Positions 1 through 41,667 of a stretch of 42,379 bases of DNA are shown one piece after another. The notes beneath the pieces are model-generated. The model saw only the letters and a program-made list of their open reading frames with translations. It made no database searches and had not been told where the DNA came from. Source of the stretch: a virus. Made by a program: the position numbers and the translations under genes. The stretch's first letter is position 1. Each line of letters starts with the position of its first letter. The stretch spans positions 1 to 42,379 of the IMG/VR virus record IMGVR_UViG_3300025131_000096, one strand, 5' to 3'.

Positions 1-108
1 TACAGAATCATTGTAACCAGAAGCACTCCAGGCTACGACGTTACCTATCTCATCACGGGCGGCGGAAAGCTCGGGGACGTACTTCGGAATACCTGGGTTT
101 GTGGGCAT
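1..108 (-). CDS. Partial structural-protein gene (N-terminal 36 codons)
   Basis: The gene reads leftward from an ATG at 106-108 and runs off the window start with no stop. Its 36 visible residues match the N-terminus of the 258-residue protein at 40891-41667. Both begin MPT and share the spaced residues P, PEL, AA, IG, AW and GYN, about half of the aligned positions by eye. The gene is therefore a paralogue of that virion-operon gene. A promoter lies directly upstream and no Shine-Dalgarno sequence precedes the ATG. Function is unknown; a virion structural role is inferred only from the paralogue's position ahead of the terminase. Confidence 0.7.
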   Translation of the reverse strand, partial: MPTNPGIPKYVPELSAARDEIGNVVAWSASGYNDSV

Positions 109-118
109 TAGAGTAGCC

Positions 119-147
119 AGTCTATCAAAAGCCCTGAGGGCTGTCAA
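119..147 (-). promoter_or_regulatory. Sigma70-type promoter, near-leaderless
   Basis: On the minus strand TTGACA (142-147) is followed by a 17-base spacer and TAGACT (119-124). The ATG at 108 lies 10 bases beyond the -10 box, so the mRNA should have a leader of only a few bases and no Shine-Dalgarno sequence. Confidence 0.65.
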
Positions 148-185
148 GATACCATTAGAAGAGCGTATATTTTTTTCTGAGAAGC

Positions 186-272
186 GGTGGGGGAGGTTTA
201 TTGGTCTAGGGGTTCCGGTGCGCGCGCGTGGGGGGGCGGCGCGCCTAGTTGATAATGATTTCTCATTCTCAT
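186..272. promoter_or_regulatory. G-rich tract followed by GATAATGA palindrome
   Basis: G runs occur at 189-193, 209-212 and 230-236, followed by an alternating GC stretch and the palindrome GGCGCGCC (238-245). At 251-270 lies GATAATGA-TTTC-TCATTCTC, an inverted repeat with 7 of 8 arm positions paired, resembling a Fur-box half-site arrangement. The same order, G-rich tract then this palindrome, recurs at 41719-41784. This sits in the divergent gap between the minus promoter at 119-147 and the plus promoter near 362-389. Binding factor unknown. Confidence 0.45.
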
Positions 273-301
273 CTTCTCGTGGTCGCGGCCGCCAGATCGC
301 C

Positions 302-338
302 TTCACCCAATCTTCACACAATCTTCACGGAAAGTTCA
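302..338 (+). repeat. TTCAC iteron-like direct repeats
   Basis: TTCAC occurs at 302, 312, 322 and 334, with spacings of 10, 10 and 12 bases. Two middle copies share the longer unit AATCTTCAC. Such helically phased short repeats are typical of binding arrays for an initiator or regulator. They lie just upstream of the plus-strand promoter. Confidence 0.45.
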
Positions 339-361
339 CGGAAGTTTATAGGTATTTTACC

Positions 362-389
362 TTGCTTTGCCCTTGCGCTATGATAGAAT
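362..389 (+). promoter_or_regulatory. Putative main promoter of the plus-strand early operon
   Basis: TTGCTT (362-367), a 16-base spacer and TAGAAT (384-389) form a plausible sigma70-type promoter. An overlapping alternative -10, TATGAT, lies at 379-384. It would start a transcript with a leader of about 360 bases before the first gene at 757. A second, weaker possibility is TTGACG at 608-613 with TATGCT 15 bases downstream. Confidence 0.45.
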
Positions 390-395
390 GGCAAT

Positions 396-680
396 GTGCG
401 AAGGGAGATTTCCCTTTGCTACGTTCTTTCCCTAAAATCATGCTATCCCTTCTAGCCTTTCCGGCTAGTGTGGGCTGACCTTGAGAGCGTCATTTTGGCT
501 TAGTCTTCTGACCCTAAAATGAGCGTATCCTAGGAAATAGCGGATAGAATCGGATCTTTGAAATCATCGGCAAGAGCGCACCCTAGTTAAGTAACCCTCT
601 AGAAGGGTTGACGCGGGGCATCCCCGGATATGCTAAGGATAGCAATACGCGCGAAATGATAGGTTAAAAAAACCTAGTCC
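396..680 (+). other. Long early leader with successive small hairpins, no gene
   Basis: No credible gene is present. Short inverted repeats include AAGGGA/TCCCTT (401-417), CTAGCC/GGCTAG (452-468), CATTTT/AAAATG (491-521), AACCCT/AGGGTT (593-609), CGGGG/CCCCG (614-626), GCTA/TAGC (632-643) and AGGTT/AACCT (661-675). None is followed by a convincing T-run, so they look like RNA structure rather than intrinsic terminators. They lead into the first two-hairpin leader at 681. Confidence 0.4.
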
Positions 681-756
681 GCTACCCACTAGGAAGGGAA
701 AGGGTAGCATCAATCCCTCAGTTTTAGGACTGAGACAACCCTTGAAATAGAAACCG
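681..756 (+). promoter_or_regulatory. Two-hairpin leader, unit 1
   Basis: Hairpin 1 is GCTACCC (681-687) with GGGTAGC (702-708). Hairpin 2 is CTCAGT-TTTAGG-ACTGAG (717-734). The ATG lies 22 bases after hairpin 2. Unlike most units there is no AGGA Shine-Dalgarno core before the start. Confidence 0.75.
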
Positions 757-1056
757 ATGTACAAGAATCTAGCAAAAAGAATCGCAGAAGATACCGCTAA
801 ACTCATGTCCCTGCACTCTCCTGTAGAGGGCGATGGGCGCAAGGTAGTAAATACTGCCGCTGGGAAGCAAATCATACGCCTGATGGCAACGCTACTGGAT
901 GACCTGGAACACGCCCAAAGGGACGTAGGAGCGGTACTAGCAAGGCAAAGGTCGACATGGGCAGAATTCACCGCAGGGGTCATCCTGGGGACTGAGAAAC
1001 GCGGTCTGGAGGTTGACCTGAGTGAGTGGGACACTGACCTGAACGAAATAGAATAG
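757..1056 (+). CDS. Small helical protein of unknown function (99 aa)
   Basis: First gene of the plus-strand cassette array. The start is the ATG placed just behind two-hairpin leader unit 1. The product appears mostly helical and acidic at the C-terminus, with no cysteine pairs, membrane segment or recognised motif. The antisense reading frame over this region is a shadow: the leaders on both sides point to plus-strand translation. No function is assigned. Confidence 0.75.
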   Translation: MYKNLAKRIAEDTAKLMSLHSPVEGDGRKVVNTAAGKQIIRLMATLLDDLEHAQRDVGAVLARQRSTWAEFTAGVILGTEKRGLEVDLSEWDTDLNEIE

Positions 1057-1062
1057 ACCCTA

Positions 1063-1134
1063 GCAGGGAGGGCATCCCTGCACAATCACCCTAGCAACAC
1101 CGCTAGGATTACCCTTAGAAAAGAGAAACCTAAA
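1063..1134 (+). promoter_or_regulatory. Two-hairpin leader, unit 2 (variant second hairpin)
   Basis: Hairpin 1 is GCAGGGA/TCCCTGC (1063-1081). Hairpin 2 has a completely different sequence from most units, CCTAGC-AACACC-GCTAGG (1090-1107), but the same 6-6-6 shape. The start codon follows after exactly 27 bases. Confidence 0.8.
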
Positions 1135-1374
1135 ATGAAACAAAGCGAAACACGCTCACTCTACTTGATCGCCTCTGAAATTAGGCGGGACTGGCAGAAG
1201 GTTAACTACGCGGCGAAACCGTACCTGGATGCAATGCACTCGCTAAACTCAATAGAGGATCAGTATATGTACGACACGGGGAAATCCGTTGTACGGTACT
1301 TCCTGTCTAATGCTAGTACATGGCGCGGAACGAAAGCCCGTGAAATCAAAGCAGAATTGAGGGCTATGTTGTAG
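1135..1374 (+). CDS. Small phage protein of unknown function (79 aa)
   Basis: The start is fixed by the leader spacing (27 bases after hairpin 2). The protein is probably all helical, with a central YAAKPYLDAM stretch and a later YFLSNASTWRG stretch. From memory it resembles a family of short uncharacterised proteins found in many phage and mobile-element genomes; this is not a function. No metal, nucleotide-binding or membrane motif is visible. Confidence 0.8.
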   Translation: MKQSETRSLYLIASEIRRDWQKVNYAAKPYLDAMHSLNSIEDQYMYDTGKSVVRYFLSNASTWRGTKAREIKAELRAML

Positions 1375-1388
1375 CCTGAGAAACCCTA

Positions 1389-1462
1389 GCAGGGAGGGTA
1401 AACCCTGCACAATCAACCTAGCAAATCCTGCTAGGATCACCCTTAGAAAAGAGAAACCTAAA
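1389..1462 (+). promoter_or_regulatory. Two-hairpin leader, unit 3 (variant second hairpin)
   Basis: Hairpin 1 is GCAGGG/CCCTGC (1389-1408). Hairpin 2 is CCTAGCA-AATCC-TGCTAGG (1417-1435), one base pair longer than unit 2 with a shorter loop. The start codon follows after 27 bases. Confidence 0.8.
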
Positions 1463-2077
1463 ATGAAAGCCACACCGAAACTCTCGGGAACAGGGAAAAT
1501 GTCCTGCCCCTCGTGGAGCTTGCCAGCTTTTGACACTTGCCCTGGGGCAGTCAATAAAGAGGGCGAAGTTTCCGACGCTTGTAAGTCATGCTACGCGAGA
1601 AAAGGAACGTACAGATTTCCCGTTGTCCAAAAGCTACGTGAACATAATCAGGCAGACTGGCATCGTACTGGTTGGGTCGATGAAATGGTCGCAAAGCTGA
1701 AAGGACTGACAAGGTTCCGCTGGTTCGATTCGGGCGATGTCTACTCTGCCGCATTGGCAAAGAAAATCTATCGCGTAATGAGAGCCACGAGTTGCAAGCA
1801 TTGGCTCCCCACAAGGAGCTACAAGTTTGCCAGCATCGCGGCGGAGCTGGATCGCATGGAACTACTGCCTAACGCAACGGTGCGGAAATCTTCGGACAGC
1901 GTAACGGGCGAGTCAATAGAGGGAAATCATACCTCGACGATAGTCCAGAATGCAGAGGATTTCACACCTGGAAAGGGCAAGGTACTGTGCCGCGCTTACA
2001 CGCGCAAAGGCAAATGTGGAAGTTGCACCGCTTGCTGGTCTAAGAAAGTCCATGAGGTGACATACATAAGCCACTAG
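1463..2077 (+). CDS. Gp88-like phage protein with Cys-rich N-terminus (204 aa)
   Basis: The largest gene of the cassette array. The N-terminus has a CPSW...DTCPGAV...CKSCYARKGTYRF pattern, followed by a RWFDSGDVYS segment and a C-terminal CGSCTACW cluster. This arrangement (CPG, CYA, then a W/H-DSGD motif) matches what I recall of the Gp88-type family in actinobacterial and other phages. The chemistry of that family is not established to my knowledge; metal or Fe-S binding by the cysteines is inference. The start follows leader unit 3 at the standard distance, and the gene ends just before leader unit 4. Confidence 0.7.
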   Translation: MKATPKLSGTGKMSCPSWSLPAFDTCPGAVNKEGEVSDACKSCYARKGTYRFPVVQKLREHNQADWHRTGWVDEMVAKLKGLTRFRWFDSGDVYSAALAKKIYRVMRATSCKHWLPTRSYKFASIAAELDRMELLPNATVRKSSDSVTGESIEGNHTSTIVQNAEDFTPGKGKVLCRAYTRKGKCGSCTACWSKKVHEVTYISH

Positions 2078-2086
2078 AAAACCCTC

Positions 2087-2157
2087 GCGGGGAGGGAATC
2101 CCCGCACAATCCCTCAGTTTTAGGACTGAGAAAACCCTTAGAATAGGAAACCTAAAG
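2087..2157 (+). promoter_or_regulatory. Two-hairpin leader, unit 4
   Basis: Hairpin 1 is GCGGGGA/TCCCCGC (2087-2105). Hairpin 2 is CTCAGT-TTTAGG-ACTGAG (2113-2130). A 27-base stretch with AATAGGAAACCTAAAG leads to the ATG; AGGA is the Shine-Dalgarno core. Confidence 0.85.
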
Positions 2158-2409
2158 ATGACATCCAACATCGAAATTGAATACGCCGAACAGGTCATCA
2201 TCGACTGCGCTCAGGATTTACAGGAAGAATGCGGCTTCCCAAACACAAAGGACTCAAAATTCTGGCGGCATCTGCGTGGATACAGCAATTGGTCTGATGC
2301 AAGAAACACCATCAAAAGATGGGCGAGAATTGTGGAACTCGTTGAGAAGGGCTTTGATCTAGCGAATAAGAAACGCGAAGAAGAAGAAGATCGCGGTCAA
2401 ACTTACTAA
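2158..2409 (+). CDS. Small unknown protein (83 aa)
   Basis: Start set by leader unit 4, with AGGA nine bases upstream. Helical, with aromatic residues in a FWRHLRGYSNW segment and a highly charged Lys/Glu-rich C-terminus. No motif recognised. A 61-residue overlapping frame inside it is a shadow without its own ribosome site. Confidence 0.75.
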   Translation: MTSNIEIEYAEQVIIDCAQDLQEECGFPNTKDSKFWRHLRGYSNWSDARNTIKRWARIVELVEKGFDLANKKREEEEDRGQTY

Positions 2410-2416
2410 CACCCTA

Positions 2417-2487
2417 GCGGGGAGGGAATCCCCGCACAATCCCTCAGTTTTAGGACTGAGAAAACCCTTAGAATAGGAAACCTAAAG
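2417..2487 (+). promoter_or_regulatory. Two-hairpin leader, unit 5
   Basis: Hairpin 1 at 2417-2435 and hairpin 2 at 2443-2460 are almost base-for-base copies of unit 4, including the 27-base link to the start codon. Confidence 0.85.
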
Positions 2488-2784
2488 ATGAAAAGCTACG
2501 ACTGCCCAGCATACCTGTCTCTGCGAAACTTTTTCGACGCGGCACTCTCGGTACAGTCTCCTCTGCGAGTACGCAACGGCGCAGGTGAGATACAGACGTG
2601 CGAAACACCTCAACAGATTTGGGATGCTGTAGAGTGTGCCGAAGAGGGGTATGTATACGTTCGGCGGGGAGACGAAAAAGCTACCTTCTGGATCATCCCA
2701 GAAAATGGTAGCGATGCGCTCACCGATTACAGCGACAACGAATTTGCCGAGGAAATCCTAACCCTCGCTAAGAGCCACGACTAA
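2488..2784 (+). CDS. Small acidic unknown protein (98 aa)
   Basis: Start set by leader unit 5. Mixed alpha/beta character: a helical N-terminus, a central YVYVRRGDEKATFWIIPE strand pair and an acidic C-terminus. Two isolated cysteines do not form a metal site. Function unknown. Confidence 0.75.
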   Translation: MKSYDCPAYLSLRNFFDAALSVQSPLRVRNGAGEIQTCETPQQIWDAVECAEEGYVYVRRGDEKATFWIIPENGSDALTDYSDNEFAEEILTLAKSHD

Positions 2785-2793
2785 CACGCCCCT

Positions 2794-2865
2794 GCGGGAG
2801 GGCAAATCCCGCACCAATCCCTCAGTTTTCGGACTGAGACAACCCTTAGAATAGGAAACCTACAG
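2794..2865 (+). promoter_or_regulatory. Two-hairpin leader, unit 6
   Basis: Hairpin 1 is GCGGGA/TCCCGC (2794-2812), one pair shorter than unit 5. Hairpin 2 (2821-2838) has loop TTTCGG instead of TTTAGG with the stem unchanged. 27 bases to the ATG. Confidence 0.85.
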
Positions 2866-3198
2866 ATGAAAACAGAATTGATTCTTCCTAAACTCATCGC
2901 CATTGGCGGCAACGAGTGGAACGCGGGAAATCACCGCCGCGTCTACTTTAACAACTTGCCAAAGTGGTACGGTCTGGAAATCTCACGCTACGGGACTGGT
3001 AACATTTCATACGCCAAACTGAACGGCGAGAAAATCAGTAACGGCAAGGCTCGCAAACTGATAGCCATAATCGACAGCGGCAAGCTTTTCTACGACGTAA
3101 ACAACGGCTCTTGGATGGCAGAGGGCTACGCCTTTACTAGCGAATACTTCCTACCCATCATCGAGAACATCGGGCGCAAGGCTGGACTGGGCGAGTGA
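2866..3198 (+). CDS. Small basic unknown protein (110 aa)
   Basis: Start set by leader unit 6. The protein is basic, with an early NEWNAGNHRRVYFNNL segment and a later NGKARKLIAIIDSGKLFYDV segment suggesting a small alpha/beta fold. It resembles, from memory, uncharacterised phage proteins of similar size. No function assigned. Confidence 0.75.
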   Translation: MKTELILPKLIAIGGNEWNAGNHRRVYFNNLPKWYGLEISRYGTGNISYAKLNGEKISNGKARKLIAIIDSGKLFYDVNNGSWMAEGYAFTSEYFLPIIENIGRKAGLGE

Positions 3199-3210
3199 AC
3201 ACAAACCCTA

Positions 3211-3284
3211 GCGGGGAGGGAAATCCCCGCACCAATCCCTCAGTTTTAGGACTGAGATTACCCTTAGAAAAGAGAAACCTAGAA
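3211..3284 (+). promoter_or_regulatory. Two-hairpin leader, unit 7
   Basis: Hairpin 1 is 3211-3230 and hairpin 2 is 3239-3256. The start codon follows 28 bases after hairpin 2. The leader decides the start of the next gene, because the open frame extends upstream through it. Confidence 0.85.
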
Positions 3285-3515
3285 ATGATAATGATGACGC
3301 ACAAACATTTCGTTGACTTAGCTGACGTTGTTGCAGAAATGGACAAATACGGCTTAACAGGAGTTCAACTTGAAGAACTTACACAGGCTATCGGCTTCGT
3401 CTGCATTAAGCATAACTCCAGCTTTGACTACACAAGATTCGAGGACTGCGTTCTCGATAAACTCGGTAGGTCTGAGTTCTACCCAATGGGCGGAGGCAAG
3501 GACAAAAAATGGTAA
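3285..3515 (+). CDS. Small unknown protein (76 aa)
   Basis: The frame is open from 3195, but the upstream part lies inside the hairpin leader, so the true start is the ATG at 3285, giving MIMMTHKHFVDLAD. Further ATGs at 3291 and 3294 are alternatives. The product is acidic and helical with two separated cysteines and a hydrophobic IGFVCIKHN segment. No function recognised. Confidence 0.75.
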   Translation: MIMMTHKHFVDLADVVAEMDKYGLTGVQLEELTQAIGFVCIKHNSSFDYTRFEDCVLDKLGRSEFYPMGGGKDKKW

Positions 3516-3535
3516 AGCGATAGAACAGAACCCTA

Positions 3536-3609
3536 GCGGGGAAGGGAAATCCCCGCACCAATCCCTCAGTTTTAGGACTGAGATTACCCTTAGAATAGGA
3601 GACCTAAAG
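3536..3609 (+). promoter_or_regulatory. Two-hairpin leader, unit 8
   Basis: Hairpin 1 is GCGGGGA/TCCCCGC (3536-3556), with an extra A in the loop. Hairpin 2 is 3565-3582. 27 bases to the start codon. Confidence 0.85.
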
Positions 3610-3981
3610 ATGACAGCGAAAAAAGAAACCGAGAGTTGCTCACCCCCATTCGGGTGTAAGTACGGTAACGACGATGCTCACCTAGTACTGGTGGACTGTG
3701 GCACTTGCCGCTACGTCTTCGCGCACACCTGCCCCGCTGACGAATTGACCTGCCCAAATTGTGGCTTTCATTCGGACGTATGCGACTTCCCCGACACCAA
3801 TTCATGGCAAAGGGGGGATCGAGAAGCATACGAGAAGCTTAACCCTAAAGCGTGTCTTTCATGCCTGGTTGTGGTAGAGGGCAAAGTTTACCAGGAAATT
3901 CCATGCCGGAGTCATTACCCCAACTTTGACCACTACTGCCACGACAAGGCAAAAGGTTGCCAACTGAAAGGAACGGAGTAA
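3610..3981 (+). CDS. Cysteine-rich, probably zinc-binding small protein (123 aa)
   Basis: The open frame begins at 3370, but the upstream part overlaps the previous gene and the leader; the ATG at 3610 has the standard leader spacing. The protein carries many cysteines, including CGTC, CPNC with a nearby CDF, CLSC and a C-terminal cluster containing C, H and C. The CxxC pairs suggest a zinc-ribbon or rubredoxin-like fold. Whether it binds nucleic acid or protein cannot be told. Confidence 0.75.
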   Translation: MTAKKETESCSPPFGCKYGNDDAHLVLVDCGTCRYVFAHTCPADELTCPNCGFHSDVCDFPDTNSWQRGDREAYEKLNPKACLSCLVVVEGKVYQEIPCRSHYPNFDHYCHDKAKGCQLKGTE

Positions 3982-3989
3982 ACACCCTA

Positions 3990-4062
3990 GCGGGGAGGGA
4001 AATCCCCGCACCAATCCCTCAGTTTTAGGACTGAGATTACCCTTAGAATAGGAGACCTAAAG
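3990..4062 (+). promoter_or_regulatory. Two-hairpin leader, unit 9
   Basis: Hairpin 1 is 3990-4009 and hairpin 2 is 4018-4035. The 27-base link matches unit 8 (GGAGACC instead of GGAAACC). Confidence 0.85.
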
Positions 4063-4341
4063 ATGAAGAAGAAGTTAGCACGGTACAGAATACATTGGGA
4101 AGAAACGCTCGTCTTCGATAGGGTTGTAGAAGCCTCTGATGAAGCTGAAGCGCGTACAATCGCTTTAGAGGAAGTGTATGGTTTAGGTGCTGAAAATGTA
4201 GTGCATGTCGAGCGCGGCTTCCGAGACGCGGTAGATGACGATACTGTTTTCAACGAAGCCACACACGCCGTACTAAGCGATTTCGAGGTCACGAAGATAA
4301 TATACCCGCCAGGAACTGTGATTGGAAGAGTTTCATACTGA
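4063..4341 (+). CDS. Small acidic unknown protein (92 aa)
   Basis: Start set by leader unit 9. A short basic N-terminus is followed by an acidic body with SDEAEARTIALEEV helical sequence, the common pattern of small phage proteins carrying an E-A-rich helix between strands. No catalytic motif visible. Confidence 0.75.
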   Translation: MKKKLARYRIHWEETLVFDRVVEASDEAEARTIALEEVYGLGAENVVHVERGFRDAVDDDTVFNEATHAVLSDFEVTKIIYPPGTVIGRVSY

Positions 4342-4357
4342 TGGAGTAGACACCCCT

Positions 4358-4431
4358 GCGGGAGGGTAAACCAAATCCCGCACCAATCCCTCAGCTTTAG
4401 GGCTGAGAAAACCCTGAAAGAAAAAGGAACC
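4358..4431 (+). promoter_or_regulatory. Two-hairpin leader, unit 10 (compensated stem pair)
   Basis: Hairpin 1 is GCGGGA/TCCCGC with a 12-base loop (4358-4381). Hairpin 2 is CTCAGC-TTTAGG-GCTGAG (4390-4407). The closing pair has changed from T-A to C-G on both arms, a compensatory change. The start codon follows after 24 bases, with AAGGA only three bases before it. Confidence 0.85.
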
Positions 4432-4527
4432 ATGAAAAAAAGAAACCACTACACCGACGCGGTAGATATAATTTGGGCGGCACTTGGTGCAATCCTACTC
4501 GCCGCGATTTGGATCGCAACCCCCTAA
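4432..4527 (+). CDS. Tiny single-pass membrane protein (31 aa)
   Basis: A short ORF in the standard position behind leader unit 10. It has a positively charged N-terminus (MKKRNHY) and one hydrophobic segment over about residues 13-29 (IIWAALGAILLAAIWIA). The layout predicts a single-span inner-membrane protein with the N-terminus inside. The leader strongly supports translation despite its size. Confidence 0.65.
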   Translation: MKKRNHYTDAVDIIWAALGAILLAAIWIATP

Positions 4528-4539
4528 CCCTGAACAGAA

Positions 4540-4641
4540 ATGCGTAACCCACGAAACCCCATTCGGGTGAGCTGGTCTGGACTAGCCGTCCTGCTCGCCT
4601 TAATCACCTACCTCGCTTGGCAATTCCCGCCGAACGGATAG
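4540..4641 (+). CDS. Second tiny single-pass membrane protein (33 aa)
   Basis: ATG 12 bases after the previous stop, with no leader unit of its own and only a weak ribosome site (CAGAAATG), so it is probably translated by coupling. Arginine-rich N-terminus, then a hydrophobic segment (WSGLAVLLALITYLAW), then a polar tail. Its architecture matches the preceding 31-residue protein; the two may act together. Confidence 0.5.
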   Translation: MRNPRNPIRVSWSGLAVLLALITYLAWQFPPNG

Positions 4642-4651
4642 CCCTGCTAGT

Positions 4652-4792
4652 CAAGCGGGGACTGGCTTGTTGAGAGTGTTTGCTCGGCAAGTCATGTTTC
4701 TGTTTCTAAAGGGTCACCTGAGTATGTGTCTAAACTGCTCACCAATCCCTCAGTTTTAGGACTGAGAAAACCCTGAGAATAGGAAACCTACA
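4652..4792 (+). promoter_or_regulatory. Two-hairpin leader, unit 11 (diverged upstream part)
   Basis: Hairpin 1 of the usual type is missing; instead CAAGC/GCTTG (4652-4669) occurs, followed by about 80 bases without clear structure. Hairpin 2 is the standard CTCAGT-TTTAGG-ACTGAG (4749-4766), 26 bases before the ATG. Confidence 0.65.
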
Positions 4793-5023
4793 ATGAGTAA
4801 AGCAAAAGAACTACAACCTTGGAAGTCCGAGTTTTTCCATGTAGACATGAAGCTACGCGGCATCGTCCTCCACAACGTGATCTACGCGCTAAACAGATTG
4901 ATACATCAACTCAACCCTGATCGACTGCCCGTCGATTCACCTCTGGCGGCGGAGATCAAGGGACTAGAATCGGTAGTCGCTCGGCTTGACAAGATCATCG
5001 AAGGAGAAGGAAACCTACAATGA
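4793..5023 (+). CDS. Small helical unknown protein (76 aa)
   Basis: Start set by leader unit 11. Mostly helical, with a leucine/isoleucine heptad-like C-terminal half (IKGLESVVARLDKIIEGEG) that could be a short coiled coil. The stop overlaps the next start (ATGA), indicating translational coupling. Confidence 0.75.
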   Translation: MSKAKELQPWKSEFFHVDMKLRGIVLHNVIYALNRLIHQLNPDRLPVDSPLAAEIKGLESVVARLDKIIEGEGNLQ

Positions 5024-5265
5024 GAAACCAGACACTTGAAAAGTTGGGACTCCGCCAGCCGCGAACAATTGCGGAACTGCGTGTTCACCCACTAACTGCT
5101 GAACTGTACCCTCTACCTCGCGGAGTACTTCGTAGCTGGAAGTCGGGTGAGACATGGTGCTTGGTGGTGGTGAAGGGGTATCATCTGAGCAATCAGCTTC
5201 GCACTAGCTATAGTGATGCGCGGGGTGTGCTTGACGCCTTCGCTGGCATCGGTGAACATGAGTAA
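5020..5265 (+). CDS. Small unknown protein (81 aa)
   Basis: Begins at ATGA overlapping the previous stop. It is preceded by GGAAACCTACA, the same ribosome-site sequence as the leader units but without their hairpins. Basic, mixed alpha/beta, with a WKSGETWCLVVVKGYH strand segment. No function recognised. Confidence 0.75.
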   Translation: MRNQTLEKLGLRQPRTIAELRVHPLTAELYPLPRGVLRSWKSGETWCLVVVKGYHLSNQLRTSYSDARGVLDAFAGIGEHE

Positions 5266-5280
5266 CAAACCAATGCCCAC

Positions 5281-5368
5281 GCGGGAGGGCAAACCAAATC
5301 CCGCACCAATCACCCAGCCTAACACAGGCTGGAATGGACTTAGAAAACCCTAAACACAGGAACGAAAA
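5281..5368 (+). promoter_or_regulatory. Two-hairpin leader, unit 12 (variant second hairpin)
   Basis: Hairpin 1 is GCGGGA/TCCCGC (5281-5304), nearly identical to unit 10. Hairpin 2 is CCAGCCT-AACAC-AGGCTGG (5314-5332), a third independent sequence keeping the same hairpin. The ATG follows after 36 bases with ACAGGAAC as ribosome site. Last unit of the array. Confidence 0.8.
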
Positions 5369-5608
5369 ATGGTACTGGAAGTAACCGAATCAGCGAGACA
5401 GTTTGTGAACATGCCACGGGCGCATCGATCATCCATACTCGCCACACTCTGGAGATTTGAGCATCGCTTTGACCAGCTTTGCATCAAGTTTGACATCGAC
5501 GGTGTCGAAATTGACATCTCCGTACCCATCGAGGCGGCAGAAAACCTCGGTAAGAACATCCTCGCGATGTGCGCCCTTGAACTGGTGAAGAAGAAGGAGG
5601 AGGACTGA
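5369..5608 (+). CDS. Small unknown protein (79 aa)
   Basis: Start set by leader unit 12. Basic N-terminal half, then a strand region FDIDGVEIDISVPIEAAE and a Lys/Glu-rich tail. The gene end carries an AGGAGGAGGA ribosome site for the next gene, whose ATG begins on the last base of this gene's stop. Function unknown. Confidence 0.75.
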   Translation: MVLEVTESARQFVNMPRAHRSSILATLWRFEHRFDQLCIKFDIDGVEIDISVPIEAAENLGKNILAMCALELVKKKEED

Positions 5609-5823
5609 TGCGCTACAATCACGCCTACTCAATTGCATTCTCAGTAGACTCGGACGAGAAAGACCCATACGAAGTACCTGCCAAAGTACTGGCGGATGCC
5701 CTCCTCAAGAGGATTCACTTCGAGCCTGAGCTTGAACTGATCGGGGCTGCCAGAGTGGGGCTGGAGTTTGAGATCGACGAAATGGTTGAGTGCTTCGAGA
5801 CCATCGACAAGGAGGAGGACTGA
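5608..5823 (+). CDS. Small acidic unknown protein (71 aa)
   Basis: Begins in a TGATG overlap with a strong AGGAGGAGGA site upstream. Strongly acidic, with FEPELELIGAARVGLEFEIDEMVE. Its own 3' end carries the same GGAGGAGGACTGATG junction as its 5' end, suggesting duplication or exchange at these junctions. Confidence 0.75.
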   Translation: MRYNHAYSIAFSVDSDEKDPYEVPAKVLADALLKRIHFEPELELIGAARVGLEFEIDEMVECFETIDKEED

Positions 5824-6077
5824 TGCCAAAGCCAATTAACCAATTCGACCTCTCAGTTGAGGCAATCGAATTAATCGCGAGCCTCTTGCGAACCAACCTG
5901 AAATTCCTGGAGCGGCTAGAAAAAATTGCCGCCCCAAGAGCAGTACCCGAACAAATTCTGGAGAACCGAGAACTCACCGAAGACCTGTTATACTACTTCG
6001 CAGGTGAAGATCGCGGCAAACCCCTAATCGAAGTCTTAGGAGGAGACACCAATGGGACTGAAGAAGGTACTGCGTAA
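5823..6077 (+). CDS. Small helical unknown protein (84 aa)
   Basis: The open frame starts at 5790, but the ATG at 5823 in the TGATG overlap with the preceding GGAGGAGG is the proper start. Helical: LSVEAIELIASLLRTNLKFLERLEKIAAP looks like a helix-turn-helix or coiled segment, followed by an acidic tail. No function assigned. Confidence 0.7.
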   Translation: MPKPINQFDLSVEAIELIASLLRTNLKFLERLEKIAAPRAVPEQILENRELTEDLLYYFAGEDRGKPLIEVLGGDTNGTEEGTA

Positions 6078-6240
6078 TGGCAATGAGGATCACGGCGTGA
6101 GGTGCGCTTCATGCCGTGACCGATCCACCATCCGTGTGAAAAACTTGAGCACCGACAAACGGTTCGCTCCGACACACGAATTCTACTGCGCGAAAGCCGA
6201 ATGCCGACGCGCACTACTCCGAAAAAATCTTAGTAAATGA
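6052..6240 (+). CDS. Small zinc-ribbon-like protein (62 aa)
   Basis: Starts inside the previous gene (26-base overlap) behind an AGGAGGAGACACC ribosome site. Basic, with CASC near residue 18 and CAKAEC near residue 48, a CxxC plus CxxxxC pair that could coordinate zinc. Probably a small nucleic-acid- or protein-binding factor, inferred from composition only. Confidence 0.7.
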   Translation: MGLKKVLRNGNEDHGVRCASCRDRSTIRVKNLSTDKRFAPTHEFYCAKAECRRALLRKNLSK

Positions 6241-6431
6241 GCAGAGAAAAATCCCTGTCTGAAATGTTGGAGGACGGTAGGAAATACCCCCCCTTCACGA
6301 ACGAACAGTATGCGTATGTCCGACACTACGCGCATCTACTGAAAACCAAACCTGCCATCGCAATTCGGGAAGCCATGAACGAGTGGCTGAAAAACCAACT
6401 GGGTGTTGAACTGCCTGGACGAGTTCGATGA
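6237..6431 (+). CDS. Small unknown protein (64 aa)
   Basis: ATGA overlap with the previous gene. Mixed charge, with a central tyrosine-rich NEQYAYVRHYAHLLK helix and a basic C-terminus. No motif recognised; its place in an unbroken overlapping run supports it as a real gene. Confidence 0.7.
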   Translation: MSREKSLSEMLEDGRKYPPFTNEQYAYVRHYAHLLKTKPAIAIREAMNEWLKNQLGVELPGRVR

Positions 6432-6655
6432 GCGAAAACATTCCGTACTACTACATCCGTCCAAGGATGACCCTGATGCGTGAGTCGGCATTCCGCCTGA
6501 CTCTCGCGTCGGGGGCGGAGAAGAAATACGAGTTGAAGCGGGAGCCGCGAGGTGTTATCCTCACCTGCAATGGCGAGGCAATCACACCACTCCTACACAA
6601 AACTGAGATGGCTGCATTCCTATCTGGACTGTGGTTTCTCATGCTAAATAAGTAA
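6428..6655 (+). CDS. Small basic unknown protein (75 aa)
   Basis: ATGA overlap with the previous gene. Contains alternating strand-like segments (FRLTLASGAEKKYELKREPRGVILTCNGEAI) and a hydrophobic C-terminus (MAAFLSGLWFLML) that may be an amphipathic or membrane-associated helix. Function unknown. Confidence 0.7.
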   Translation: MSENIPYYYIRPRMTLMRESAFRLTLASGAEKKYELKREPRGVILTCNGEAITPLLHKTEMAAFLSGLWFLMLNK

Positions 6656-6864
6656 TGACCCCCAGAGAAGCGCGACTGGTTCTGACGAAATTTCTTACAC
6701 GCATCCGCTTTGAAGGTAGGTTGAACGCCGAAGGACTATGCCCTACCGAGATTGACACCATCCATGAACTCGTGGAAGAGGGGCTGGGGGATTTGGAACA
6801 GGCAGAGATCCGCGCCGAAGTCGATTTGTCGATGGGGTTGCCAGCCGAAAGGAAAGAAACATGA
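6655..6864 (+). CDS. Small acidic helical protein (69 aa)
   Basis: Starts in a TAATG overlap with no clear Shine-Dalgarno sequence, so coupling is likely. Predicted helical with an acidic second half (IHELVEEGLGDLEQAEIRAE). No function recognised. Confidence 0.65.
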   Translation: MTPREARLVLTKFLTRIRFEGRLNAEGLCPTEIDTIHELVEEGLGDLEQAEIRAEVDLSMGLPAERKET

Positions 6865-7052
6865 GTAGCCTACTGCTAATCACCCTTGCAACAGCGGTGT
6901 TCGCCGCGTACCTACTGGTAATCAACCTCTACTGGGCGGCAGAGAAGAAATGGATCTGGAAGCTGGGGGATTTCCTCATCTGGCTGACCGCAACCCTGAT
7001 GCTACTCGCCATCCTCACAGAAATAATTGTTCACTCGTCGGAGACAGCCTGA
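6861..7052 (+). CDS. Two-span small membrane protein, holin-like layout (63 aa)
   Basis: ATGA overlap with the previous gene. Two hydrophobic segments, about residues 3-26 and 36-58, are joined by a short charged loop (WAAEKKWIWK), with a polar tail. This hairpin topology is shared by class II holins and many other small phage membrane proteins. It lies in the early region rather than beside lysis genes, so a holin call is only a possibility. Its 3' end overlaps the convergent minus-strand gene by 22 bases. Confidence 0.7.
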   Translation: MSSLLLITLATAVFAAYLLVINLYWAAEKKWIWKLGDFLIWLTATLMLLAILTEIIVHSSETA

Positions 7053-7315
7053 TCTCGACTGACAAGAAACATCGGAGTACCCTTGCCCATGTATGCCCCA
7101 AGGACGTTGAATTCAAAGAACTCAAGCGCTTCGTCGAAGTCCATCCCATCACGCTCCATAAGAATCTTGACGCACTTGTCAGAGTCGTATACTGCCAGGG
7201 GAGGAGCATTGAACTGGGCGGCATATCCAATGTATGCTTCCGAAAACCCATCCGCAACGAGTGCTTCAGGGTTCAACTCAGCAAGTTCATCCATATTCTC
7301 TTTTGTGGACATCAT
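7031..7315 (-). CDS. Acidic phage protein of unknown function (94 aa)
   Basis: Last gene of the three-gene minus operon. The ATG at 7315 sits directly after the previous stop; a second ATG follows at 7312. Acidic, with an MERDGMDFDEALEFFEFNVLG segment of a type I recall from several uncharacterised phage proteins. No catalytic motif. The long plus-strand frame opposite is a shadow. Confidence 0.7.
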   Translation of the reverse strand: MMSTKENMDELAELNPEALVADGFSEAYIGYAAQFNAPPLAVYDSDKCVKILMERDGMDFDEALEFFEFNVLGAYMGKGTPMFLVSRDQAVSDE

Positions 7316-7627
7316 TCACTCATCGAAGACAGCCTGATAAGCCTCGCTAAACGCGACACCCCAGTATGCAGAATGGGCATGGGTTTGCCCAATCCACGCA
7401 CGGCAATGCGCCCACTCGTGACAGAGGGTTTCGATTTCCTGATCAACGGAAACGCCCTTCGCAATACGAATGAGAAAGCGCGACGGGTTCTCCTTGAATT
7501 CGCAGGAGCCCCAAGCGTCAACCAACTTCCCTGTCCGCACGATCCGGCACGGATGCGCCAGCGGGACTAAGGCACGAAGGACAACCTCTGCCTGTTTCAG
7601 CGTCTCGCAATTAACGGGGCGGCGCAT
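7316..7627 (-). CDS. SprT-like zinc metalloprotease (103 aa)
   Basis: Contains the zinc-protease signature HEWAH (H70, E71, H74) in the helix LCHEWAHCRAWIG, followed by THAHSAYWG, where H83 or H85 may be the third ligand. This spacing fits SprT/Wss1-type and related small phage metallopeptidases. The ATG at 7627 has GAGGGG five bases upstream. It lies in an operon with a possible regulator upstream (17-base overlap). The substrate is unknown; DNA-bound proteins or a repressor are possibilities inferred from the family and context. Confidence 0.75.
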   Translation of the reverse strand: MRRPVNCETLKQAEVVLRALVPLAHPCRIVRTGKLVDAWGSCEFKENPSRFLIRIAKGVSVDQEIETLCHEWAHCRAWIGQTHAHSAYWGVAFSEAYQAVFDE

Positions 7628-8063
7628 GCTGACCCCTCGGCAAACGAACCATCGCCGCTACGTTTTCCCATCCTGTTGGATCAGAGGGCAGAATACCTGT
7701 CCGAATGAACCGCCGAACAGGGCGAAGAGGTACGTCCAACCGCTCCGAAACGTGCTGGGCATTTCGACAAACCTCCCGCCGCCCATCACCATACACTACC
7801 AGGATATCGAAGTGCCGCCTCCTCCCTGGAGTGGGCGAACGCTGGGTAGCCGAGCGGCGGATCCGCTTCACGCCCTCCCAAAACCTGTGCGCCCGATGCC
7901 CATCAGGAACCTGACCTCGACGGGCGGCATTTCGGAGCGCAGATAGCGACGGGCGTTCACCCCTAGGCAACGAAATGTAAAGCTCGGTGACCGAAGGATG
8001 CGAATGTGTATCGCCATCTACATAGTCGATGACCACTCGCATTTTCCGACTCAAATTTGCCAC
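7611..8063 (-). CDS. Possible DNA-binding protein with duplicated module (150 aa)
   Basis: The frame starts at GTG 8063, seven bases behind a -10 box; an internal ATG (residue 8) is an alternative. The very arginine-rich protein appears to contain two copies of one module. Each has a strand pair with YVDGD or YGDG, a helical stretch, then an R-rich helix ending in RRGQVPDG or RTGILPSD (roughly residues 8-60 and 84-138). The second parts look like simple helix-turn-helix units. Its position as first gene off a divergent promoter region suggests an autoregulator, which is inference. Confidence 0.65.
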   Translation of the reverse strand: MANLSRKMRVVIDYVDGDTHSHPSVTELYISLPRGERPSLSALRNAARRGQVPDGHRAHRFWEGVKRIRRSATQRSPTPGRRRHFDILVVYGDGRREVCRNAQHVSERLDVPLRPVRRFIRTGILPSDPTGWENVAAMVRLPRGQHAPPR

Positions 8064-25080: not shown

Positions 25081-26256
25081 TTACCAGCCTATTCTTCTTC
25101 GTGTGAGTAAGGTTTGTAGGTAGTTATTCCTTAGTTGCATACTTTCTTCCCCTCTGTCTTCAAACCAGTAAGGTGTTCCACCTGTAACAGGTGGAGCATG
25201 AAGCGGTTGGTTCATCCTCCATTCTGCTGGTACTTGGTAATCCCAAGGACTTGGATCCCCAGATCCCCAGTAATCAAATCTCTCGTTTTGTTGCTCTGGA
25301 AAGATCGATGGAGGGTAATGTGGAGGTTTGAAGGGAAGGTTTGGCGGAGGAGAGAGAGCTCCTCTAGAAGTTCCAGGTAGCTCTGTTATACCGTAAGGGG
25401 GATCATAATATCCGCCTCCTTCTCTTTGTGCGAAATCTCGGGAATCAATTTGATACGGCTCCGGCCCTGTGTCAAGTCTGGCCCAGGGAATTAAATCTGG
25501 AACACTAGGGGGCGCATGCTGCGCTTGAATTGAGCCGAATGGAGGAGGAGTTGCCCCCATCGAAAACCCTTCGTCATAAAGGGTTTGATGTCCCAGTAGA
25601 TCTCCCGCCCTTTTCATTGGGGAGATACTAACTCCTTCGTCAAAGTCAAAATCGTCATAAAATCTCGGATGTCCCAGTAGATCTCCCGTCCTTTTCATTT
25701 CCGAAGGATCTACACTGTAAAAGCTGGAATCAGGATCGTCGATAATGTCGAATCGATCAGGATCGCTCGGCACTGTCGTTTTGAATAGACCTTTCAGCAA
25801 CGCAGAACCTCCCATCGAAGCAATAGCACCTCCTAAGGCTCCCATTAAAGCTGATTTTTTCTGACTTCTTTGGTAAGCCATCTGCTCTAGAAATCGTTCG
25901 TGCTGGAGGTTAGTTTTGTACCGCTCCTCTTTAAGCTGTGCAGATGTACTGAGAGCCTTCTGCTCCATTTCTAAAAGCATGCGCTGATTCTGCATCCGCT
26001 TTGACATAGCAGCTTCACTTGCCAGAGTCGCAGATTGCGCCCGCGCAAATCCGCCGAGCACAGTTTGAGCTCCCCCTGTCAGCCCCGCACTTTGTTCAGC
26101 GCGTTCGACTTGAGCAGTAGCTTGCTCCCTAATCCCTTGCTCAAGAGCAGCCTCTAAGACCGGATCGTCAAATCCACTTAGTTGCCGTAGCCTCCGTGCA
26201 TAGTTTTCAAACTGTAATGCCGATGAGCTTGGTCTTTGTGAGCCTCTTTTTGCCAT
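25081..26256 (-). CDS. Virion protein with proline-rich tail and internal repeat (391 aa)
   Basis: N-terminal ~150 residues are a long charged helical region, followed by a Gly/Ala-rich hydrophobic patch (SALMGALGGAIASMGGSALL). A near-perfect repeat follows: MKRTGDLLGHPRFYDD and MKRAGDLLGHQTLYDE about 28 residues apart. The C-terminal ~150 residues are rich in Pro, Tyr and Gly. The first part resembles small internal virion proteins (T7 gp14 position). The proline-rich tail is unusual for them. Confidence 0.6.
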   Translation of the reverse strand: MAKRGSQRPSSSALQFENYARRLRQLSGFDDPVLEAALEQGIREQATAQVERAEQSAGLTGGAQTVLGGFARAQSATLASEAAMSKRMQNQRMLLEMEQKALSTSAQLKEERYKTNLQHERFLEQMAYQRSQKKSALMGALGGAIASMGGSALLKGLFKTTVPSDPDRFDIIDDPDSSFYSVDPSEMKRTGDLLGHPRFYDDFDFDEGVSISPMKRAGDLLGHQTLYDEGFSMGATPPPFGSIQAQHAPPSVPDLIPWARLDTGPEPYQIDSRDFAQREGGGYYDPPYGITELPGTSRGALSPPPNLPFKPPHYPPSIFPEQQNERFDYWGSGDPSPWDYQVPAEWRMNQPLHAPPVTGGTPYWFEDRGEESMQLRNNYLQTLLTRRRIGW

Positions 26257-32719: not shown

Positions 32720-33958
32720 CTATGCGTCCTTAAAACGGTCTGACATTACGAATGAACGACGCCCGTTATCCAAAGACCAGCATGATCTCGCATGTAGTCG
32801 TTTGAACAACCAAGTATCTTGCTCTGCAACCTGGAAATCAGAGATCGGCTCTAGCCATTTGCCTGTAGCAGCATCGCCGCCGTAGACCATGTTAAAGCGC
32901 AAAGAACTCCAGTTAATCCCCATGATTGGGTGTGTAGCAACAGGTGTAACATCCGAAGTACAGTCCCATCCAGCATGCGCTGTAAGGAAATGGTGGAAAT
33001 CCAACATTGTCCCTGCGATAGGAATTTCAGTAGTAGTTGCCAAGTTTCCTAGTAGGGCGTCATTAATTTGACCCTTACTTCGCATATACTTGAGAACCTC
33101 TTCGTACATTTCAGGAGTTACCATCCAGTCCGTAACCATCTCACCCGCTCCGTAGCGGGAAACTGCGATGATATACTTCTGGAGGTACTCGTAAACATCT
33201 TGGCCGTTATTAGCATTGAATGCTGTTTTACCGCCGTTATCGTTGTCTACAGCATCAAAATAAGGCTCCCATTTAGGGGCATTCTCCTGAGATATTCCCA
33301 TGAATGTCTCAGTCTCCTTATTGCCGTATTGAGATCCACCTGCTGGCCCTCGATTATTATCAACTCCTGAAATGAACAAACCTAACAGAGAGAAAGAGGG
33401 CATGTCAGCGTAATCTGATCCACCTCCAAAATTTGCGTCCGTTAAATGTGGCGCAAGTGCTACAGGGGCAGCAACATCCGTAGCTCCTCCAAGTACAGCA
33501 TAAGCCTCTTCTTCTTGGAAGAATTCAGCCATGTGCCGTTCAAGTAGTCCTGCAACAGTATCGATGCCTTGCTGTACTGGACGCCGTAGCAAATCCTCAG
33601 GTATCACAAAGTTACTTGCAACATCTAGGATGCTTGAACGCGCAGTTGACCAAATGCCGTTTTGCGTGAGTGCCAAACTGGAGGCAGAACCCATCGCCTG
33701 AGAACCAGCGACTTCTCTAGAGCCCCTGTAGTATTTCCAGGCACTACCTTCTCCTCCTGTTGCTCCTGTAGTCAAGAGGTGCTCTACGTAATCCGCATCA
33801 TTCACAGAGAATACGCGGCCACGTTCGGCAGCTTTACGGTAGAATTTTTCGCCTCGGTCATTTACTAACCAAGCCGGATCTGAGGTCATTGTGTTAATGG
33901 TACTGAGGACAAGAGAGTCCAGCAGTTCCGTGGTAGTTCGCGTGAGCGGGAGAGCCAT
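32720..33958 (-). CDS. Major capsid protein, HK97-type (412 aa)
   Basis: About 410 residues with an N-terminal helix (RTTTELLDSLVLSTINTM), an extended arm, a helical spine segment near VIPEDLLRRPVQQGIDTVAGLLERHMAEFF, a variable loop rich in Asn/Gly and a strand-rich C-terminus. It follows the scaffold gene by two bases, the standard scaffold-capsid order. The HK97 fold is inferred from this organisation rather than a sequence hit. Confidence 0.75.
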   Translation of the reverse strand: MALPLTRTTTELLDSLVLSTINTMTSDPAWLVNDRGEKFYRKAAERGRVFSVNDADYVEHLLTTGATGGEGSAWKYYRGSREVAGSQAMGSASSLALTQNGIWSTARSSILDVASNFVIPEDLLRRPVQQGIDTVAGLLERHMAEFFQEEEAYAVLGGATDVAAPVALAPHLTDANFGGGSDYADMPSFSLLGLFISGVDNNRGPAGGSQYGNKETETFMGISQENAPKWEPYFDAVDNDNGGKTAFNANNGQDVYEYLQKYIIAVSRYGAGEMVTDWMVTPEMYEEVLKYMRSKGQINDALLGNLATTTEIPIAGTMLDFHHFLTAHAGWDCTSDVTPVATHPIMGINWSSLRFNMVYGGDAATGKWLEPISDFQVAEQDTWLFKRLHARSCWSLDNGRRSFVMSDRFKDA

Positions 33959-34651: not shown

Positions 34652-35098
34652 TTACCCTTGGCTCTCTTCATGCGGTTTAAGAAATCGAGGAGGTTGTTTA
34701 TCCCAGGTGGTCACACCATCCTCGTTAAGGTTAGTCTTTTTTAATTTGGTTTCAAAGTCGCGCAGACTATAAGCTGTGCGATTCTCTGGATCTCCCTCGC
34801 GAGGGAGTGCAAACATCTCAAATCCATTAGCCCATTCACCACTACCTGTGCGGCTAGGACGGGCGGCTTGAGCGTCGTTTAACCAGATATCTCGGTCTTC
34901 GAGATACTGGGTGAATTCAATTTCGGCTTTAGAGTTTCTGGGCGGGGCTGATATTTTACTTTCACATTTCTGACAAGTCCACTCAGGATACTCTACCGCA
35001 CCTGTAAATTTACATGTAGTACAGGTGTGTAATGTACGTAAGCCTTGGTCAATAAGCCAGCCAACATACGGATCGCCAAAACGCGGAAGGTTAAACAT
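34652..35098 (-). CDS. Zinc-ribbon virion-operon protein (148 aa)
   Basis: CTTC near residue 27 and CQKC near residue 42 form a zinc ribbon, followed by a charged region. Overlaps the upstream gene by eight bases and precedes the scaffold. A zinc ribbon between portal and scaffold genes is unusual; the role is unknown. Confidence 0.65.
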   Translation of the reverse strand: MFNLPRFGDPYVGWLIDQGLRTLHTCTTCKFTGAVEYPEWTCQKCESKISAPPRNSKAEIEFTQYLEDRDIWLNDAQAARPSRTGSGEWANGFEMFALPREGDPENRTAYSLRDFETKLKKTNLNEDGVTTWDKQPPRFLKPHEESQG

Positions 35099-35507
35099 TA
35101 GAAGGATGTGCCTCGATTAGAATGTTGTACTCTGCATTATCCGGAGCAGAACCAGATTGCTTTAAACGAAGAAGATCAGGAGGATTAGAGATAGTTACAG
35201 AGTCCATCACGCCAGTAGTAACTTCAATAGTAATCGTAGTTCCTATATCATTCCACGTACCGTCTGGATTACCTGCCTGGATTTCATATACTCCAGAATT
35301 ACTTGTAGGTGCAACCTCCACGGTTCCAAGATGAAATGTGGCCGAAACACATCGTCCAATTTCAACTCCCTCCGTGATGGTGTCACCCTCCTCAACAGCT
35401 TCAAAGCGAAACCATTTAACCCCGCCAGAATTAAAGGCAGCAGTATCGTCACCAGATGCTGTTCTCCAGGCTCCGTTTAAAAGTTTTTGGTGGGTAGCAG
35501 TAGTCAT
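35091..35507 (-). CDS. Beta-rich small virion protein (138 aa)
   Basis: Strand-rich with two WF/VTV-type alternating segments (VKWFRFEAVEEGD, TTITIEVTTG) and a single cysteine. A head decoration or Ig-like protein is plausible from composition and location. No specific family recognised. Confidence 0.55.
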   Translation of the reverse strand: MTTATHQKLLNGAWRTASGDDTAAFNSGGVKWFRFEAVEEGDTITEGVEIGRCVSATFHLGTVEVAPTSNSGVYEIQAGNPDGTWNDIGTTITIEVTTGVMDSVTISNPPDLLRLKQSGSAPDNAEYNILIEAHPSNV

Positions 35508-40890: not shown

Positions 40891-41667
40891 CTAGTCTGTA
40901 ACTAGGTAGCCCTGGAGAGAGACAGCTAGCCCGTTTCCTGCCGAGTCACCCACACCCGTTACCCAAATGTCGGTCTTAGCTGGAAACGCCGTAGCCCCGT
41001 TTAGATTGAGCGTCTGGGCTGACGGATTTGAGGTAGTAAAAATATGCATCACTCTGGCCGCGCTGACTGGGGCTGTGCTGTCATCCGCATCCAGGCGTTG
41101 GTAGATCTTGACAACATACTCTCGCCCCGTCTGATCTGCAAAAGCCTCTGCCCTCGACAAATAAAGGGTCTTACCTGCCGGAACAGTATAAATCGCCATG
41201 TGAGTCTGACCGTAACCAGCACCCATAACAGCTACCACATCTCCGCCAGAGGTTTCAATGGTCATGTTGGCCTCGTTAGCATTGCCGTAGGCTCCCGTAT
41301 CGGTCACATAGACCCGATGCACCCGAATGAACTGAGTGGTCGTTAAACTGCTGGCACTCGCGCCGTTGGTAACTACCTCTGCGCTGGTCTCTGCGAAATT
41401 TTGATCCAGCCCCTCGATGACAATTTTTCGCGCGTGAGTGCCGCCCGTCGCATCCTTAGCGTCTCCACCCGCCTTGATCCGTAGAGACGATGCACTGGTG
41501 AGATGTCCTGCGTAGGTGCTGCCGCCGCCTTCCCAGATAAATTCTGCCGATGTGCCTACAGCCGTATTGTAACCAAATTTATCCCAAGCAGTGATCTTGC
41601 CAATCTTGCCTTGGGCGGCAGTTAGCTCAGGGATGTTTACAGGAGTTCCGGCTGGATGGGTTGGCAT
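40891..41667 (-). CDS. Virion structural protein, paralogue of the gene at 1-108 (258 aa)
   Basis: Strand-rich throughout, with Ala/Gly/Thr/Ser-rich composition and segments such as RKIVIEGLDQNFAETSAEVVTNG and KTLYLSRAEAFADQTG. From memory this resembles an uncharacterised structural family common in aquatic short-tailed phages. First gene of the minus-strand virion operon. The N-terminal ~37 residues align with the partial gene at 1-108. A head-fibre or decoration role is possible but unproven. Confidence 0.7.
   Translation of the reverse strand: MPTHPAGTPVNIPELTAAQGKIGKITAWDKFGYNTAVGTSAEFIWEGGGSTYAGHLTSASSLRIKAGGDAKDATGGTHARKIVIEGLDQNFAETSAEVVTNGASASSLTTTQFIRVHRVYVTDTGAYGNANEANMTIETSGGDVVAVMGAGYGQTHMAIYTVPAGKTLYLSRAEAFADQTGREYVVKIYQRLDADDSTAPVSAARVMHIFTTSNPSAQTLNLNGATAFPAKTDIWVTGVGDSAGNGLAVSLQGYLVTD

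Follow-up and report, generated by a model that had tools for sequence, protein, structure and literature searches.

An array of two-hairpin leaders with covarying stems ahead of changing early genes in uncultured phages

Repeated start-associated elements and mobile intergenic cassettes are, as a general kind, already known from phages, the closest described systems being the start-associated sequences (SAS/ESAS) of cluster K mycobacteriophages and the PeSLs of T4-type phages. The latter were reportedly described by Arbiol (2010) and Comeau (2014) as mobile regulatory cassettes of these phages. They are mobile cassettes combining an early promoter with a terminator (PMC4503421). The ESAS consists of one 17-bp imperfect inverted repeat with 4–13 bp between its arms, which were reported not to pair as RNA (Pope 2011, PMC3203893); it was proposed to be a DNA site (PMC3203893). 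Here we analyse a 42,379-base IMG/VR virus record (IMGVR_UViG_3300025131_000096, hereafter the window), which carries twelve leaders between positions 681 and 5368, each ahead of a small open reading frame of the same direction and built in the order stop codon, hairpin 1, linker, hairpin 2, ribosome site and ATG.

As in cluster K, the repeats lie directly upstream of many unrelated small non-structural genes, and their ribosome-site part contains an AUAGGAG-like sequence able to extend the pairing with 16S rRNA. The original prediction had named SAS/ESAS as the nearest analogue, which holds for the position and fails for the element itself. The SAS consensus GGGATAGGAGCCC occurs with up to two mismatches in none of the 12 leaders and with up to three at 6 places in the window, compared with 10.9 expected by chance, and the leader covariance model described below has no match in 30-kb stretches of the cluster K phages Anaya and Pixie. 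Moreover, unlike the ESAS with its non-pairing arms (PMC3203893), the leaders comprise two covarying hairpins with stems of 6–7 bp and a conserved linker. With the PeSLs they share the character of a repeated intergenic stem-loop cassette in gene-shuffling regions; they differ in having no terminator and no convincing promoter and in belonging to another phage group. The T4 cassettes, absent from the original prediction, are a better precedent for gene shuffling than SAS/ESAS. No array of covarying two-hairpin RNA leaders that is kept while the cargo changes was found described in the open-access literature.

Twelve two-hairpin leaders had been predicted; eleven units fold clearly into two hairpins, unit 11 (gene 4793) has only a weak variant of hairpin 1, and hairpin 1 of unit 1 (681–708) is unrelated in sequence to those of the other units. 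Hairpin 1 starts a few to about 20 nt past the stop codon, and hairpin 2 lies about 18–36 nt ahead of the start codon. Between 681 and 5400, 11 double hairpins precede an ATG, compared with a mean of 0.1 and a maximum of 1 in 100 dinucleotide shuffles; the folding z-scores of the leaders range from -1.3 to -3.5, whereas those of 11 other gene starts are close to 0. The claim that a leader precedes nearly every tiny early gene applies to 12 of the 14 genes starting within 757–5369, the last leader preceding gene 5369. It does not extend to the genes at 5608–6861, which have the same direction, mostly overlap stop-to-start and are devoid of leaders.

A covariance model (R2) was built from nine window units, with units 1, 11 and 12 held out. 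It recovers the three held-out units with expectation values (E) of 3e-12 to 7e-7 and detects exactly the 12 leaders in the window, the next match having an E of 2.3. Across 22 distinct copies from the window and its relatives, 93.4% of the pair cells are paired, compensatory double changes occupy 46 cells compared with a shuffled mean of 12.3, and the covariation score is 0.48, compared with no more than 0.10 for slid partners. Alternative counts over window and relatives yield 93–95% paired cells and scores of 0.43–0.48 (slid controls up to about 0.10), with double changes in 9 of the 12 pairs; since the alignments were fitted to the model, these pair counts carry some bias toward the structure. 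In hairpin 2 the sequence is free and the pairing kept, and its compensations can be read directly (CTCAG/CTGAG, CCTAG/CTAGG, CCAGCC/GGCTGG, CCCGC/GCGGG and CTGGC/GCCAG). Hairpin 1 is partly fixed in sequence (GCnGGG...CCCnGC). The unpaired linker contains an AAUC core, mostly as CAAUC, in all 23 aligned copies, which come from seven sources, and hairpin 2 is followed by a mostly conserved CCC-containing stretch and the purine-rich ribosome site. The family is thus defined by a hairpin 1 of the above form, the AAUC linker, hairpin 2, a purine-rich ribosome site and ATG; it comprises the 23 copies, among which units 1 and 11 and both copies of the relative L074 deviate in part. Compensatory changes and maintained pairing in both stems argue that both hairpins act at the RNA level, and the predicted modular expression leader thereby finds support as a conserved RNA structure, with model matches in relatives. 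A pseudoknot between the AGGG of the hairpin 1 loop and a downstream CCCU, invariant in the window, is lost in the relatives and was dropped. No Rfam family, self-cleaving ribozymes included, matches window positions 1–8000 at E <= 1, and none reaches the gathering score in the window or any of four relatives; one miRNA match on L074 is spurious.

Terminase searches yielded a set of uncultured relatives in IMG/VR. The leader is present in G003 (L014), G004 (L015), G005 (L016), G006 (L102), G007 (L027) and L074, so that the covariance-model search proposed with the original prediction found the units in five or more uncultured relatives. With R2, trained on window copies only, the per-record E is 1.6e-5 for G006, 2.3e-5 for G007 and 0.003 for G005. 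A further model (R3) was additionally trained on the copies of L015, L016, L027 and L102, whose R3 scores are therefore high by construction; among records outside its training, R3 matches in 892 kb L074 (1e-5), L014 (5e-4) and a second L074 copy (0.05), followed by matches at about 2 or more. Named phages yielded no relative in nucleotide searches with the leader regions of the window and of L102, the DNA polymerase used alone as bait in IMG/VR gave none either, and a primase alignment retrieved only two relatives, both already known. The terminase is absent from the bacterial genomes searched, which therefore provide no clue to a prophage or host. An exact-pattern scan of IMG/VR for the ribosome-site motif of the window returned 0 matches. 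The exact hairpin 2 pattern matched once, in L009, where the site is an ordinary terminator in an unrelated phage. Among the consensus-pattern matches, all but L102 and the previously found L015/L098 appear to be chance, being devoid of hairpin 2 and start context.

The genes behind the leaders differ in conservation from the replication and virion genes. Polymerase, helicase, primase and virion genes are common to the window and G003, G005 and G006 at 24–67% protein identity, whereas the leadered early genes of the window have no convincing homologue in the leader-bearing relatives; the sole weak match extends over 21 residues between gene 4063 and G004 (E 0.004). This argument rests on G003, G005 and G006, because L027, L015 and L074 are fragments in which absence means little. 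No paralogues were found among the cargo genes. The leaders are homologous to one another from about 7 nt ahead of hairpin 1 to ATG+5, with identity among eight units falling from about 0.7–0.9 near both leader edges to about 0.25 just outside. The gene-content comparison thus bears out the predicted division between a conserved leader and its cargo genes, as judged from sequence. Unit 7, a mosaic of a hairpin 2 like that of units 8 and 9 and a ribosome site like that of units 2 and 3, suggests recombination inside leaders. Together with the sharp homology boundaries it is only suggestive of genes being moved by leader-mediated homologous recombination. Two cargo genes have counterparts elsewhere. 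One of these, gp93 of Mycobacterium phage Iwokeuplikedis, shares 62% identity with gene 1135 and starts 8 bp past the previous gene, a gap too short to hold a leader; the other, from an uncultured podovirus, shares 51% identity with gene 1463. An actinobacterial host is hinted at solely by the occurrence of gene 1135 in both Mycobacterium and Gordonia phages; other window proteins have their matches in phages that infect Gram-negative hosts or cyanobacteria.

The units, all on the + strand, begin hairpin 2 at exactly the twelve predicted positions. Unit 1 (681–756) carries its divergent hairpin 1 at 681–708 (GCTACCC/GGGTAGC) and hairpin 2 at 717–734, followed by the ribosome site and ATG 757 (held-out E 5e-8). 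Unit 2 (1057–1134) has hairpins at 1063–1081 and 1090–1107 (CCTAGC/GCTAGG) before ATG 1135, unit 3 (1383–1462) at 1389–1408 and 1417–1435 before ATG 1463, unit 4 (2081–2157) at 2087–2105 and 2113–2130 before ATG 2158, and unit 5 (2411–2487) at 2417–2435 and 2443–2460 before ATG 2488. They are followed by unit 6 (2789–2865; hairpins 2793–2813 and 2821–2838, the latter with a UUCG loop; ATG 2866), unit 7 (3206–3284; 3211–3230 and 3239–3256; ATG 3285), unit 8 (3531–3609; 3536–3556 and 3565–3582; ATG 3610) and unit 9 (3985–4062; 3990–4009 and 4018–4035; ATG 4063). Unit 10 (4353–4431) combines a long-looped hairpin 1 (4357–4382) with a compensated hairpin 2 (4390–4407, CAGCU/GGCUG) ahead of ATG 4432. 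In unit 11 (4715–4792; held-out E 3e-12) the hairpin 1 variant at 4719–4741, a weak 4-bp stem TGAG...CTCA that follows some 150 non-coding nucleotides, precedes hairpin 2 at 4749–4766 and ATG 4793; since 18 bases (CTAAACTGCTCACCAATC) are identical to those of an L074 leader, the variant may be a subtype rather than a product of decay. The next gene, at 5020, has no leader, and unit 12 (5276–5368; held-out E 7e-7), with hairpins at 5281–5304 and 5314–5332 (CCAGCC/GGCTGG), precedes ATG 5369, the cargo region extending from 757 to 5608. The non-coding stretch before unit 11 (4640–4792) has a strong predicted fold and is possibly a small RNA; a likewise long, mostly non-coding stretch precedes the equivalent of unit 11 in L074. 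Adjacent tiny predicted membrane peptides of 31 and 33 residues are encoded at 4432–4527 and from 4540, with a leader on the first only.

Based on these features we tentatively favour, at somewhat less than even confidence, a mechanism in which the leaders form a cis-acting RNA family that provides each early gene with an independent 5' end by processing in the linker. The early region would be transcribed as one shared RNA from an upstream promoter, and a single-strand-specific host endonuclease of the RNase E type would cut within the linker. Subsequently, hairpin 1 would cap the upstream message at its 3' end and hairpin 2 the downstream one at its 5' end, the ribosome site beside hairpin 2 remaining open. 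As each gene would have its own leader-derived 5' end, any place between two leaders would suffice for the expression of an incoming gene. A candidate early promoter lies at 356–384 of the + strand (TTTACC-17-TATGAT), chance predicting an equal number of such sites. The ribosome site AGAA(U)AGGA permits two-block pairing with a 16S tail ending in CCUCCUUUCU, which we take to be the tail of a presumed actinobacterial-type host. Weaker Shine-Dalgarno sequences were not seen in the leadered genes (mean -6.35 vs -6.23 kcal/mol).

Comparable leaders and processing sites occur elsewhere. The E. coli ompA leader is of the stabilising 5' hairpin type, and phage T7 has RNase III early processing sites. 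In this small lytic phage, too, hairpins separate early genes; the 6–7 bp stems found here are shorter than those of typical RNase III sites. The ompA leader resembles the present ones in the order of hairpin(s) and Shine-Dalgarno sequence. So does the gyrase mRNA of M. smegmatis, in which a protective 5' hairpin is followed by the Shine-Dalgarno sequence (PMC2358910); both are single host genes, and the stabilising role is hypothetical here. The mycobacterial katG mRNA arises from cleavage in single-stranded RNA and is stabilised by a polypurine tract near the start (PMC2358910). In T4 gene 32, with an RNase E site at -71, the cleavage sites are conserved although the upstream genes were reorganised (PMC3014915). 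This phage leader, too, is conserved in relatives despite differing upstream genes; it differs in serving a single gene with a pseudoknot and gp32 autoregulation and in forming no array, and cleavage is hypothetical in the present case. Through the katG, gyrase and gene 32 messages, each step of linker processing has a counterpart elsewhere.

Several points weigh against linker processing. The ribosome site is in silico only slightly more open in the leaders than in shuffled leaders (0.644 vs 0.605 unpaired), and its context dependence is only slightly lower (standard deviation 0.051 vs 0.071). Unit 1 has a hairpin 1 without any upstream gene, and therefore 3' capping is not the only role of hairpin 1. 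Cleavage and stabilisation are themselves inferred steps. Finally, a purely physical cap needs no conserved linker sequence, and a bound factor would fit equally well; the conservation of the linker leaves room for it. The strongest rival, which we consider possible though somewhat doubtful, is a trans-acting phage or host protein or small RNA that would bind the frame of linker and hairpins and switch translation or stability of all early cargo together. It would account for an unpaired core retained in 23 of 23 aligned copies from different phages despite changing stems, and for many copies of one element in a single operon. However, no such factor is known, and no convincing protein is confined to the leader-bearing phages, the stretch 34652–35098, common only to them, lying within the structural block; single-strand conservation equally fits a cleavage site or tertiary contacts. 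An extended version, a "one key, many locks" early regulon in which one trans-acting factor reads linker and hairpin frame and the leaders also exchange cargo by recombination, appears rather more doubtful. If true, any gene inserted behind a leader would at once come under phage early control.

A passive translational insulator, with hairpins shielding the next ribosome site from terminating ribosomes and upstream sequence so that every gene would be translated on its own, without processing or regulator, is unlikely. The position of hairpin 1 soon after the stop codon, the end of hairpin 2 just 5' of the initiation region and the absence of leaders from the overlapping downstream genes are compatible with it, as is the insulation effect calculated in silico; this effect is small, however, and linker conservation would be superfluous. 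A PeSL-like cassette, each leader providing its own promoter and terminator hairpin and mediating gene shuffling, is very improbable. T4-type PeSLs act in this manner (PMC4503421), five units have a -10-like TAGAAT box that overlaps their ribosome site, and a single weak 9/12 promoter-like match (3265–3292) spans the ribosome site of unit 7. However, no leader has a U-tract intrinsic terminator on the + strand, promoter-like sites, scanned for the sigma-70 type only, are no commoner than chance, and units 2, 3 and 7 have lost the final T of the box. Least credible of all is a DNA-level inverted repeat serving as operator or recombination site, the RNA fold having no role: many intergenic copies and the ESAS precedent (PMC3203893) speak for it, whereas both stem sides change while pairing persists, and all copies keep one strand and one position relative to start codons.

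The leader looks like a standard expression socket for plug-in genes. Phage early regions hold many small genes of unknown function with fast turnover, and an RNA element supported by covariation would explain how foreign genes are expressed there immediately. The leaders are a case where selection on the leader is separable from that on the genes behind it, and the covariance model offers a means of seeking cargo genes in other viromes.

Related early regions show further elements. In G003, G005 and G006 a second leader type (type B) was described from sequence only, with sites at about 1660–1040 of L024, 16030–15040 of L020 and 10465–9630 of L102 (all reverse); it runs from a GC-rich hairpin GCCCG...CGGGC through a spacer, for instance TTAGGGCAGTGA or TAGGGCAATGA, to a second hairpin and the start codon. 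The roughly 300 non-coding nucleotides before the first leader of the window (385–680) open with a hairpin GCGAAGGGAGATTTCCCTTTGC (398–419), and a similar AAGGGATTCCCC hairpin lies near the start of the early regions of G003 and G005. In L030, an AT-rich relative (terminase 56%), a repeated short ribosome site CTGAGGAGAATCAAAAATG and its variants (about 880–2210, reverse) stand before the early genes in place of hairpin leaders, and the gene adjoining its terminase has 93% identity to window 40891–41667. Over 15.6 kb, G001 has 97.8% identity to the window; a local divergence hot spot comprises the two genes 32720–33958 and 35091–35507, with only 83–86% protein identity. Gene 25081–26256 contains a 48-nt repeat in two copies, 88% identical and 81 nt apart (25571–25699), also present in G001.

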